Assembly: GCA_030950085.1 (NCBI GenBank)
Contig: JAUZRW010000066.1
Coordinates: 1-52,770, forward strand
Direction of reading: 5' to 3'
From: Anaerolineae bacterium
Lineage (GTDB): Bacteria; Chloroflexota; Anaerolineae; Aggregatilineales; Phototrophicaceae
DNA: 52,770 nt
The notes below the pieces were generated by a model that was not told the origin of the DNA, ran no database searches, and worked only from the letters and a program-made list of their open reading frames with translations. The position numbers and the translations under genes are program-made. Of the stretch, positions 26,724 through 52,694 are shown in pieces. Positions within the stretch are counted from its first letter, which is position 1. Every line of letters begins with the position of its first letter.

Positions 26724-26729
26724 TATTTC

Positions 26730-26948
26730 AACCTGCAATGTACGTGATGATGAGTACCATATTTGAGGCCAACACTCACTCAACGGGAACTCGCGTTAAC
26801 AGTGTTGAGGTGATAAGCTTGCGTAGCCAAGACCAAACCACTTGCAGAGAACCCACCTGCTTAGCAGGTCTCAAAATTCCCCATCACACGGCAGGGCAGG
26901 TCGGACTCATAGAAACAGCGCACCGACTATCAGATGCGCTGTTTTTGA
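26730..26948 (+). ncRNA. Candidate free-standing structured RNA, about 219 nt
   Basis: A 436-bp spacer between two minus-strand genes contains a promoter-like sequence, a structured stretch and a strong terminator, all on the plus strand and without a convincing reading frame. Visible hairpins are CAACACT / AGTGTTG (about 26770 and 26801), an inner AACG / CGTT, ACCTGC-TTA-GCAGGT (26853-26867) and the terminal ACAGCGCA / TGCGCTGT. GGTGAT (26809-26814) can pair with ATCAC at about 26883. Size and isolation recall 6S RNA, but I cannot match it to any family. It lacks the SRP GGAAG loop, RNase P signature and tmRNA ends. Confidence 0.5.
26914..26947 (+). terminator. Intrinsic terminator of the candidate ncRNA
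   Basis: AACAGCGCA (26914-26922) pairs with TGCGCTGTT (26935-26943) and is followed by T residues. It is not needed by any annotated gene on this strand, which supports a transcript ending here. Confidence 0.82.
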
Positions 26949-38999: not shown

Positions 39000-39296
39000 T
39001 GAAACAACATACTACACCAAAGGCGATGAACCAAAAGAGTAGTCGTTGTGTTGGCGAACAGAGAGCAAACCCCATAGGCTGGAAGGGTGGCACGTACAAC
39101 AACGATGAATGGCTTGGGGAGCTGCGTAGGCGAACAGTCCAATTATTAGCTTACGACGGGTTGCACTCCGTTATCATAGTGCAGTGTATCGGCAATAGCC
39201 CATATACGAAGAGTGCCTCAGCATAGATTTGACTGAGGAATCAAGGTGGCACCGCGGGAGTCCCTCTCGTCCTTGACTGGATGATGAGGGCTTTTA
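39000..39296 (+). promoter_or_regulatory. tRNA-Trp T-box leader of the trp operon
   Basis: All T-box landmarks appear in order. The Stem I base carries the AAGAGTAG kink-turn motif (39035-39042). CAGAGAGC (39059-39066) and the GGCTGGAA distal loop sequence follow. The specifier loop reads GAATGGC, giving specifier codon TGG at 39110-39112 (Trp). The conserved antiterminator sequence AAGGTGGCACCGCG sits at 39243-39256. The bulge reads UGGC and so pairs with GCCA, as expected for bacterial tRNA-Trp with a G discriminator base. A terminator stem follows. Uncharged tRNA-Trp would stabilise the antiterminator and switch on trpE and the genes behind it. Confidence 0.95.
39262..39295 (+). terminator. 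T-box terminator stem
   Basis: CCCTC-TCGTCC and GGATGA-TGAGGG pair over 11 bp with one bulged base, around a six-base loop, followed by CTTTT. The U-run is short, so termination may be modest, or the stem may be assisted. Confidence 0.75.
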
Positions 39297-49206: not shown

Positions 49207-50006
49207 CAGAACAAACAACTGTACGTGGCTTAGATGCGCTCAATGCGCTGTTTGAAGGCGCGAAAAAAGAGGGGCGCTCGGCATTTTTACCCTATTTCCC
49301 GATTGGCTTCCCGACTTACGACGATTCGATAGCGGCGATAGAAGCAATGGCATCAGTTGGGGTCGATGGCTTTGAAATCGGTGTCCCTTTCAGCGACCCA
49401 CTTGCTGATGGACCCACTATTCAAGAAGCTACTCAGATTGCCCTGAAAAACGGGATAACGGTCAGGAAATGTCTAGCGGCGGTGAGGTCTCTACGCGAAA
49501 AAGGCGTACAGCAACCGATGATGATGATGAGTTATGTTAATCCACTTATCGCCTATGGTGTCAATGAATTTGTGACTGACGCGAAAGCTGCGGGGGCTGA
49601 TGGCTTAATCATCCCAGATTTACCACCAGAAGAAGCCGTGATGTTCGCAGAGGCTTGTCAGCGTGAAAACCTCGCATTGATATTTTTCCTTGCGCCCACA
49701 AGCAACGAAAAACGTATCGAACTTGTCGCGGAAAATGCGACTGGATTTATTTATGTTGTGTCTTTAACAGGCATTACAGGTGCGCGTGACCAATTACCCG
49801 AAGATTTGACGGATTTCATTGGGCGTATTCGTGCGAAAACAGCTATACCACTCGTACTTGGTTTTGGCATCAGTACACCAGCGCATGTCCGACAATTACA
49901 AGGGCTTGTGGATGGTTTTATCGTGGGGAGTGCCTTGGTGCGTGCAGGCAAAGAGAGTGCCGAAAAAGTGCGCCATCTCGCACAAACCCTGCGACAAACG
50001 ATGTAA
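49203..50006 (+). CDS. trpA: Tryptophan synthase alpha chain
   Basis: It cleaves indole-3-glycerol phosphate to indole, which passes to TrpB. The 267-residue barrel has the catalytic Glu in GFEIGVPFSDPLADGPTIQEA (which also holds the catalytic Asp region), DGLIIPDLPPEEA, FLAPTSNEKRI, FIYVVSLTGITGAR and the phosphate loops VLGFGIST and GFIVGSALVR. It is the last trp gene. The start ATG overlaps the stop of the hydrolase gene. No strong terminator follows before the next promoter. Confidence 0.96.
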   Translation: MTEQTTVRGLDALNALFEGAKKEGRSAFLPYFPIGFPTYDDSIAAIEAMASVGVDGFEIGVPFSDPLADGPTIQEATQIALKNGITVRKCLAAVRSLREKGVQQPMMMMSYVNPLIAYGVNEFVTDAKAAGADGLIIPDLPPEEAVMFAEACQRENLALIFFLAPTSNEKRIELVAENATGFIYVVSLTGITGARDQLPEDLTDFIGRIRAKTAIPLVLGFGISTPAHVRQLQGLVDGFIVGSALVRAGKESAEKVRHLAQTLRQTM

Positions 50007-51045: not shown

Positions 51046-51074
51046 TTGACAGATGTTTGTTGACAGGGTATGCT
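51046..51074 (+). promoter_or_regulatory. aroH-aroF promoter
   Basis: TTGACA (51046-51051) and TATGCT (51069-51074) are 17 bases apart, giving a start near 51081. A second copy of TTGACAG lies 14 bases further on, inside the spacer (51060-51066); the repeated GTTGACAG may be an operator. Confidence 0.8.
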
Positions 51075-51103
51075 TTGCGCGATTAGTTTAGGATACATCA
51101 AAC

Positions 51104-51196
51104 ATGATGCTCAACACGGCAAAAAATCTCTACAACTTTTATTATTTTTATTTTAGCAGCCATAAAGATGGGTGTAGAGGATTACTGCTTGCTTGA
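51104..51196 (+). CDS. Aromatic leader peptide of aroH-aroF
   Basis: This is a 30-residue frame beginning MMLNTAKNL and followed by the run YNFYYFYF (residues 10-17), four Tyr and three Phe in eight codons, then SSHKDGCRGLLLA and stop. TAGGA lies ten bases before the ATG. It sits between a good promoter and an intrinsic terminator, 93 bases before chorismate mutase and DAHP synthase genes, whose pathway makes Phe and Tyr. The composition is that of pheL- and tyr-type leader peptides in classical attenuators. Its product probably has no role of its own. Confidence 0.85.
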   Translation: MMLNTAKNLYNFYYFYFSSHKDGCRGLLLA

Positions 51197-51225
51197 TGGG
51201 TAACATCAACAAAGGTCATAACAAG

Positions 51226-51255
51226 GCGCAGGGTTCTACACCTCGCGCTTTTTTT
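51226..51255 (+). terminator. Attenuator terminator
   Basis: GCGC-A-GGGT (51226-51234) pairs with ACCT-C-GCGC (51240-51248), with one A-C mismatch and one G-U pair. Seven T follow (51249-51255). It precedes aroH by 33 bases. Confidence 0.85.
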
Positions 51256-51288
51256 ATTGCTATAACTAATACATGGAGACAGGTTTAG

Positions 51289-51681
51289 ATGATGATGGTA
51301 CGGGGAGTTCGCGGCGCAATCACAGTCGATGAGAATACAGCCGAAGCGATTTTGGATGCGACAGATGAAGCACTGCGGATGATGATTGAGGCGAATGGCA
51401 TTGTTGAGGAAGAGGTCGCTAGTGTTTTATTCACAACAACACCTGACCTAACTGCCTGTTTTCCGGCGAAAGCGGCACGCAATCTCGGTTGGCGACGGGC
51501 GGCGCTAATGGGTTTTCAAGAAGTTGATGTACCGGAAGGATTAAAAATGTGTGTACGGGTGCTGATTCATTGGAATACAACTAAAAATATTGATGAAATA
51601 CAACATATTTTTCTGCGAGGTGCTATAGCACTGCGCCCCGATATTGCCAAGAAGAATTTAATTAAGGACAAAGAACTATGA
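51289..51681 (+). CDS. aroH: Chorismate mutase, AroH type
   Basis: It rearranges chorismate to prephenate, the branch toward Phe and Tyr. The 130-residue sequence is the trimeric pseudo-barrel AroH type of Bacillus subtilis and not the helical AroQ type: [53 protein letters not shown] with the active-site Arg and Cys region, and [10 protein letters not shown]. The first of three consecutive ATG codons is used here; the second or third is equally possible. Its stop overlaps the start of aroF (ATGA), so the two genes form an operon under the attenuator. Confidence 0.94.
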
Positions 51682-52694
51682 TTGTGGTCATGCAAGCAAG
51701 AGCAAACCAAGAACAAATCACAGGTGTCGTCAAGCGCATTGAAACTGACGGCTACACAGCACACCTTTCTGAAGGTGAGCATCATACGATTATTGGATTA
51801 GTGGGCGAGAGTCCGACTCCGTTGCGAGAGGATAATTACGCTACGATGGACGGTGTTGATAAAGTTGTCCGTATCAGTGAACCGTATAAACTCGCCAGCC
51901 GAACGTTTCACCCACACGATACGCATGTGCCATTAAATGGTTCAGATATGGGTGATAATAAGGTACTGCTCATTGCGGGTCCATGCTCCGTGGAAAGTCG
52001 TGAGCAAATTATCGAAATCGCCTGTGCTGTCAAAGAAGCAGGGGCAACGGCATTACGTGGGGGCGCGTTCAAACCGCGTACCTCACCGTATAGCTTCCAA
52101 GGGCATGGTGAAAATGGTTTGAAGTGGTTAGCCGAAGCGCGTGAAATTACAGGTTTGCCGATTGTGACTGAAATTATGGATCCTAGTCTTGTCCCGATGG
52201 TGACAGAATATGCTGATGTGTTACAGGTTGGCGCACGCAATATGCAAAATTTCACCTTGCTTAATGCTGTGGGTGCAAGCCAACATTCAGTATTATTGAA
52301 GCGTGGCATGTCCGCTACCGTGAAAGATTTGCTGATGGCAGCCGAATATGTGCTGTCGCATGGGAATAATAAAGTGATGTTATGTGAGCGCGGTATTCGC
52401 ACCTTCGAGACAGCTACTCGCAATACAGCAGATATTAATGCCATTCCGGTACTGAAAGCGGCGACACACCTTCCTATTATATTTGACCCCAGCCATGCAA
52501 CGGGTAAATGGGAATTAGTTGAATCGCTTTCACTTGCGGGTATTGCGGCGGGTGCTGATGGGCTTATTATTGAAGTTCATTCTGACCCAGCAAATGCCAT
52601 GTCTGACGGGCGACAGAGTTTGAAGCCCGAAGTTTTCGCCGAATTGGTGCAGAAGGCACGTAAAGTAGCTGAGGCGATTGGTCGCGGCGCATAA
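51678..52694 (+). CDS. aroF: DAHP synthase, type I beta, with N-terminal regulatory domain
   Basis: It condenses PEP and erythrose 4-phosphate to DAHP, the entry to the shikimate pathway. Residues about 1-70 form a ferredoxin-like regulatory domain, as in the Thermotoga enzyme, where it closes the active site when Tyr or Phe binds. The barrel follows with the metal-binding Cys in IAGPCSVES, the [17 protein letters not shown] segment, [38 protein letters not shown] with a metal-binding His, and the [17 protein letters not shown] end. Length 338 fits. Enzyme feedback and the leader attenuator would respond to the same end products. Confidence 0.95.

Follow-up and report, generated by a model that had tools for sequence, protein, structure and literature searches.

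The window, a stretch of 52,770 nucleotides, belongs to an Anaerolineae bacterium; its host lies in Chloroflexota, the phylum that an earlier note, made from the letters of the DNA, had held probable. Close to the end of the window, profile matches identified an AroH-type chorismate mutase followed by a DAHP synthase with an N-terminal ferredoxin-like domain, the pair that the note had named aroH and aroF. The region in front of aroH carries a promoter-like site, a short reading frame with a run of Tyr and Phe codons, and a hairpin followed by a run of T (Table 1). Further upstream, a T-box (RF00230, 105.7 bits, 39017–39277) precedes trpE, which is followed by trpG, trpS, trpD, trpC, trpF, trpB, and trpA up to position 50006, with other genes between. 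This was the sole T-box RF00230 above the cut-off in the window; the aroH leader did not reach that score. A 6S RNA (RF00013, 60 bits) was also found in the window at 26727–26906.

Table 1 Features of the aroH–DAHP synthase locus in the window.
Feature	Position	Strand	Evidence
Promoter-like site of the sigma-70 type, TTGACA, 17 nt, TATGCT	51046–51074	+	Sequence; similar site before the leader in relatives
AGGA, candidate Shine-Dalgarno site for the leader frame	51090–51093	+	Sequence
Leader peptide frame, 30 amino acids, MMLNTAKNLYNFYYFYFSSHKDGCRGLLLA	51104–51196	+	ORF list; frame openness in relatives
Putative sensing run YNFYYFYF, with four Tyr and three Phe codons	51131–51154	+	Sequence; Phe/Tyr run conserved
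Segment 1, pairs with segment 2 (TCTCTACA / TGTAGAGG)	51127–51134	+	Fold; swap test
Small hairpin right after the aromatic codons, window form CCAT-AAAG-ATGG	51160–51171	+	Alignment of 37 loci; window form by eye
Segment 2 (GGTGTAGAGG), pairs with either segment 1 or segment 3	51171–51180	+	Pairing computations
Leader stop codon	51194	+	Leader frame
Intrinsic terminator hairpin AAGGCGCAGG-GTTCTACA-CCTCGCGCTTT, overlaps the T-run 51249–51255	51223–51251	+	−13.0 kcal/mol; covariation
Segment 3 (TCTACACC), antiterminator partner of segment 2; forms the terminator loop and inner 3′ arm	51235–51242	+	Pairing, swap test, fold
aroH, monofunctional chorismate mutase	51289–51681	+	TIGR01796, 135.9 bits (cut-off 82); PF07736
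DAHP synthase with N-terminal ferredoxin-like domain	51678–52694	+	NF006421, TIGR01361; PF00793, PF18152

The earlier note had read this region as a Phe/Tyr leader-peptide attenuator, and the parts that it named were found again: the promoter-like hexamers, the 30-codon frame with YNFYYFYF, and two alternative pairings (51128–51134 with 51173–51179, and 51171–51178 with 51235–51242) are all present in the sequence. The T-run of the proposed terminator is also there, and the hairpin itself was amended to 51223–51251, which makes 51235–51242 its loop and the inner part of its 3′ arm. Taken alone, the window is only suggestive of an attenuator. A promoter scan of the window returned 5 sites against 4.8 in shuffled sequences, i.e., the chance level. 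The terminator was not listed by a simple terminator scan of the window because of a bulged C in its stem, and the fold of the leader was mildly more stable than that of shuffles (z −2.16; 9 of 200 shuffles were equally stable). The case therefore rests on relatives.

Genomes of the family and order of the window carried aroH in 90 of 101 cases, own genome included, and 89 of the 90 places were taken in, the omitted one (G024) lying at a contig end. A leader was counted when at least 4 of 9 codons encoded Phe or Tyr and this nine-codon stretch began 60–125 nt upstream of a terminator-like hairpin with an energy of −10 kcal/mol or below; L031 was dropped before this count. With these fixed criteria, a Phe/Tyr frame and a terminator at similar spacing preceded aroH at 79 of the 89 loci, including the window's own, and the distance from the codon run to the terminator had a median of 95 nt (quartiles 89 and 100; 84 leaders). 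Among the ten misses, L119 had only 53 nt upstream, and L004, L026, L114, and L129 fell below the criteria with weaker leaders visible by eye, while L163 showed no clear leader before aroH. The other four (L006, L113, L133, and L139) were leaderless, and there the trpA match ended 59, 75, 76, and 6 bases upstream of aroH, respectively. In the family and order, trpA was matched near aroH at 39 loci; the four leaderless ones have 6–76 bases between the two genes, and the other 35 have at least 221. Where trpA is close by, the leader occupies the trpA–aroH gap at most related loci.

The codon run was compared with chance in 86 upstream regions (L112, L119, and L143 were dropped for their short upstream sequence). 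Five or more Phe/Tyr codons among nine consecutive codons were present upstream of 70 of the 86 aroH genes, compared with 2.1% of 860 dinucleotide shuffles. The same mark was reached in 3 of 27 aspartokinase upstream regions, which served as a real-sequence control, and Thr/Met codons reached five of nine upstream of aroH in 5 of 86 cases. When the 70 best windows were read in the three frames, Phe/Tyr codons numbered 432, 63, and 63. The Phe/Tyr frame was open with a nearby start in all 84 leaders, compared with 31 and 24 for the shifted frames, a contrast that is partly built in since Phe and Tyr codons cannot be stops. In addition, a Shine-Dalgarno-like 4-mer preceded the start in 44 of the 84 leader frames and in 3 for each shifted frame. 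A promoter score (matches out of 12, plus 0.5 for A2/T6) of at least 10 was obtained ahead of the leader at 41 of 83 loci, of the type TTGACA-17/18-TATGCT, compared with 1.4% of shuffles. By its openness and codon conservation, a short predicted frame rich in codons for the end products thus precedes these genes.

Aligning the upstream regions of related aroH genes had been proposed in the earlier note as the check on its reading, and the comparison supported that reading: the aromatic codons are kept and the terminator covaries, and the alternative pairing is kept on weaker evidence. This runs contrary to the first outcome that the note had named as refuting, leaders that keep neither codons nor pairing segments, and the conserved promoter ahead of the leader bears on the second, a transcription start downstream of 51104. 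The alignment (A1) comprised 37 sequences hand-picked from the 80 loci of the swap test described below because they looked alignable, a choice that could favour the reading. In these 37 aligned leaders, 8 of the 11 terminator pairs had compensatory changes and 91.6% of the cells were paired. RNAalifold predicted the terminator from A1 unaided; from the same 37 leaders, it returned the terminator only and not the alternative pairings. A predicted intrinsic terminator lies between the leader frame and the first structural gene.

Pairing, fold, and spacing at individual loci were analysed in 80–85 loci; in the sets of 85, one contig occurs twice (as L031 and L157) and some loci are near-identical (L136–L138 and L160/L164). 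An antiterminator that excludes the terminator is present in the window, and its support across relatives is moderate. In the 37 aligned leaders, 72.2% of the antiterminator cells were paired, compared with at most 57.3% in slid controls; as for covariation, the pairs with double changes were matched by 115 of 500 shuffles, and the cells by 64 of 500. In the swap test, in which L136, L137, L138, L157, and L164 had been dropped beforehand (n = 80), segment 2 had its own segment 3 in the best 5% of partners at 22 of the 80 loci, where 4 were expected. For the pairing of segments 1 and 2, the corresponding number was 12 of 80 with 4 expected, a modest excess. This second pairing is present in the window; the register of segment 1 varies among relatives and does not give an alignment in a single register. 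Both pairings are thereby borne out in part.

To represent a stalled ribosome, the fold was computed with everything up to a point 9 nt beyond the final aromatic codon removed. In this state, the antiterminator was the minimum-energy structure of the window (−26.8 kcal/mol). Over the 85 loci, the best terminator-free fold averaged −32.4 kcal/mol, compared with −25.6 kcal/mol with shuffled spacers, and 23 loci fell below the 5th percentile of shuffles. The terminator-free fold lay at a median of 3.1 kcal/mol above the overall minimum, so that in many loci the terminator is still more stable at equilibrium, even in the stalled state, and timing must matter. With the terminator forbidden, pairing of segment 2 with the terminator region is possible at every one of the 85 loci; we did not count this as evidence, since the constraint favours such pairing. 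The best helix of segment 2 lay more on the 5′ arm of the terminator in 36 of the 85 loci; in the other 49, its share on the 3′ arm was equal or larger. The antiterminator is accordingly not uniform, and the idea that it always attacks the loop and 3′ arm was dropped.

A small hairpin lies right behind the aromatic codons, with the common family form CCAC-ATAG..-GTGG. In the 37 aligned loci, 77.0% of its cells were paired, compared with at most 44.9% in slid controls, and one of its column pairs (68–84) was CG in 14, GC in 9, and UA in 2 sequences, which is strong covariation. Double changes were found in two of its four pairs only, a result matched by 379 of 500 shuffles, and the CCAT-AAAG-ATGG form is absent from the unconstrained minimum-energy fold of the window. 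The hairpin is thus also partly established. Its ATAG-type loop (A1 columns 67–85) is often kept, and, as judged by eye, the frame that it occupies with respect to the leader changes from family to family. Conservation of the loop despite a differing frame would point to selection on the RNA rather than on the peptide.

The predicted leader is wider in reach than the earlier note could see. A draw from the phylum gave 251 genomes, with aroH in 126; of 127 other aroH places, 69 were read, and a leader with terminator was flagged at 17 of 19 further loci of the same class and at 13 of 50 loci of other classes. The 13 belong to the families f72 (8), f82 (2), f108, f111, and f95 (one each). The remaining seven of the 15 f72 loci have 4 to 7 Phe/Tyr codons out of 9; L247 combines 4 such codons with a terminator, and the other six are without a terminator of −10 kcal/mol or below. 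At eight unflagged loci of other classes (L262–L264, L270, L276, L277, L294, and L299), trpA is a close upstream neighbour of aroH. Under strict filters, a covariance model built from the leader found matches in 68 of 298 genomes of the window's class. The leader was directly before aroH at 15 of the 17 model-matched loci that were read, and at L187 and L188 aroH starts several hundred bases past the match. Eleven DAHP synthase loci had an aroH match: six have the leader (L031, L033, L034, L037, L042, and L044), L035 has a partial aroH and was dropped, and no leader was found at L041, L049, L051, and L070. Prephenate dehydrogenase can also stand behind aroH with the leader still fitting, as found at L005 and L118 by Pfam and at others by eye. 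In genome G009, a second DAHP synthase has its own Phe/Tyr leader and terminator (L203, 1510–1650). In the own genome of the window, no leader was seen by eye before pheA, ilvB, or hisD; ilvB sits after what reads like ilvE.

In this genome, the second match of the leader model (E 0.005) lay before an aspartokinase gene, where a Thr/Met-rich frame, VEHLKHYTTTTMMTTMPTQFGNGGFRLP, was found. Two more matches there (E 2.95 and 4.07) were rejected, as they resemble an ordinary terminator and a chance hit. Among the best 30 aspartokinase places, 27 had a scored terminator (L207–L231, L234, and L235), that of L214 being unconvincing; L232, L233, and L236, without a scored terminator, were dropped from the codon count, and L200 (1496–1640) and L207 are the same place. 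At least five Thr/Met codons out of nine were present in 25 of these 27 loci from the best 30 places, compared with 5.7% of 540 shuffles. All 27 belong to the family of the window, and L236, the sole aspartokinase locus read from another family of the order, showed no leader. The aroH and aspartokinase sets share a layout and may also share ancestry. The attenuator of the E. coli thr operon likewise lies before an aspartokinase gene, with Thr/Ile codons in its leader peptide, compared with Thr/Met codons in the set found here.

From these features, we consider the leader of aroH and the DAHP synthase gene very probably (about 90%) a classical ribosome-mediated transcription attenuator coupled to charged tRNA-Phe and tRNA-Tyr. 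When either charged tRNA is short, the ribosome would stall within the aromatic codons and cover segment 1. Segment 2 would then be free to pair with segment 3, at the terminator's loop and inner 3′ arm, and RNA polymerase would continue into aroH. When both aminoacyl-tRNAs are plentiful, the ribosome would arrive at the stop codon and, judged by the general knowledge of ribosome size, cover the end of segment 2, or segments 1 and 2 would pair after its release; with segment 2 hidden or paired, the terminator (51223–51255) would form. Translation of the frame, ribosome stalling, termination, and the relative weight of the two amino acids are what we infer from the sequence. In Thermotoga, the ferredoxin-like domain of DAHP synthase mediates feedback by Tyr and Phe. 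As the DAHP synthase of the window has such a domain, the same end products may act on both the enzyme and the mRNA.

Three other explanations were weighed against this attenuator. The frame might simply be a small protein gene whose transcript ends at an ordinary intrinsic terminator, the aroH operon being transcribed independently and without coupling. The chance-level number of promoter-like sites in the window agrees with such an arrangement, which nevertheless appears very improbable: it does not account for the conserved spacing between codon run and terminator, for segment 2 fitting its own terminator over those of other loci more often than expected, or for codons that match the pathway in two operons, Phe/Tyr at aroH and Thr/Met at aspartokinase. 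We give similarly little credence to a terminator-bearing leader that binds a metabolite, as a riboswitch, or a protein, and in which the Phe/Tyr run would be incidental. The small hairpin with its often conserved ATAG-type loop does exceed what a bare attenuator needs, and would suit this explanation. However, the aromatic run is conserved in one reading frame where much of the rest diverges, no Rfam family reached its cut-off in the leader of the window, and in 20 related loci only tRNA genes (E up to 0.5) did so. A weak match to the trpB motif (RF04312, 51161–51260, 21.3 bits against a cut-off of 59) was rejected; according to the part of the source available, this motif was described from Firmicutes and Fusobacteria (PMC11109978).

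The least probable alternative, with hardly any weight left to it, is a leucine-sensing leader in a shifted frame, for which the window offers a frame (51070–51156) ending in LLLFLF. Leu codons do reach five of nine at 56 of the 86 loci, presumably because the Phe/Tyr run yields them when read out of frame. This frame was rejected mainly on openness, which is complete for the Phe/Tyr frame and limited to 31 and 24 of 84 leaders in the shifted ones, and on the 44 to 3 ratio of Shine-Dalgarno-like sites; moreover, Leu has no link to the aroH and DAHP synthase genes. Sensing of charged tRNA-Phe and tRNA-Tyr by a ribosome in the Phe/Tyr frame remains the preferred explanation.

The mechanism itself is already known, as is a Phe/Tyr leader before a DAHP synthase gene in Corynebacterium. 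In C. glutamicum, the leader aroR with Phe-Tyr-Phe, credited to Neshat et al. 2014, lies before the DAHP synthase gene aroF, and as in our model ribosome stalling raises transcription (PMC11802643). The earlier note had taken control of chorismate mutase plus DAHP synthase by a mixed Tyr/Phe leader in a probable Chloroflexota genome as not described; no report for Chloroflexota was found in the open-access literature searched, and the C. glutamicum case qualifies the statement for DAHP synthase. Unlike the host of the window, C. glutamicum is a member of the Actinobacteria, its aroR is reported to answer to Phe and not to Tyr, and the part of the source at hand mentions no aroH chorismate mutase (PMC11802643). 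The pheL leader of E. coli, which controls pheA according to the same partial text (PMC11802643), resembles the window in placing a Phe leader (Phe_leader, RF01859) before a gene with chorismate mutase activity, as far as the accessible description goes. The chorismate mutase of the window belongs to another enzyme family, and RF01859 scored 15.6 bits in the window against a cut-off of 55 and was unlisted at the gathering threshold. For the uORFC-13-1 motif of Acholeplasma, an upstream frame containing Phe codon(s), together with a terminator, has been proposed in front of aroF; unlike the window's leader, this motif is limited to Acholeplasma and environmental sequences and has at least one Phe codon, and a Tyr/Phe run is not mentioned in the available extract (PMC8632094). 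Attenuation of aroF was also hypothesised in E. coli and Shewanella (PMC2659441, PMC8632094), with tRNA-Tyr named as the signal (PMC2659441). These are Gammaproteobacteria, in contrast to the window, and the excerpts of both sources mention no such leader peptide (PMC2659441, PMC8632094).

In the open-access literature searched, no report of attenuation or leader peptides was found for Chloroflexi, Chloroflexus, or Chloroflexota; the survey by Lopatovskaya et al. 2010 is outside this scope and may list such leaders. As far as the accessible portions go, a genome-wide study of leader genes counted Chloroflexi among the groups with too few genomes to judge (PMC4833913), and in another paper the name appears in a reference title only (PMC9413887). 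As far as these searches show, the lineage, the aroH target, the spread, and the aspartokinase set are new.

More tentatively, and with the odds somewhat against it, the layout of promoter, codon run, small hairpin, segment 2, and terminator with a switchable loop may be old and exchangeable in Chloroflexota. Each pathway would then insert sensing codons of its own: Tyr/Phe where aroH is joined by DAHP synthase or prephenate dehydrogenase, and Thr/Met in front of aspartokinase. The hairpin would add a function outside textbook attenuators, such as polymerase pausing.

The comparative evidence extends attenuation through a class and into part of the phylum. It suggests a Phe/Tyr regulon in these Chloroflexota, made up of aroH and either DAHP synthase or prephenate dehydrogenase, and that the Thr/Met leader before aspartokinase is a joint sensor of two end products. 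With a T-box before the trp genes and a Phe/Tyr leader before aroH, one aromatic cluster appears to use two RNA devices that respond to tRNA charging, and at most related loci with a nearby trpA the position of the leader, after trpA and ahead of aroH, looks as though it insulated the Phe/Tyr branch from trp control.
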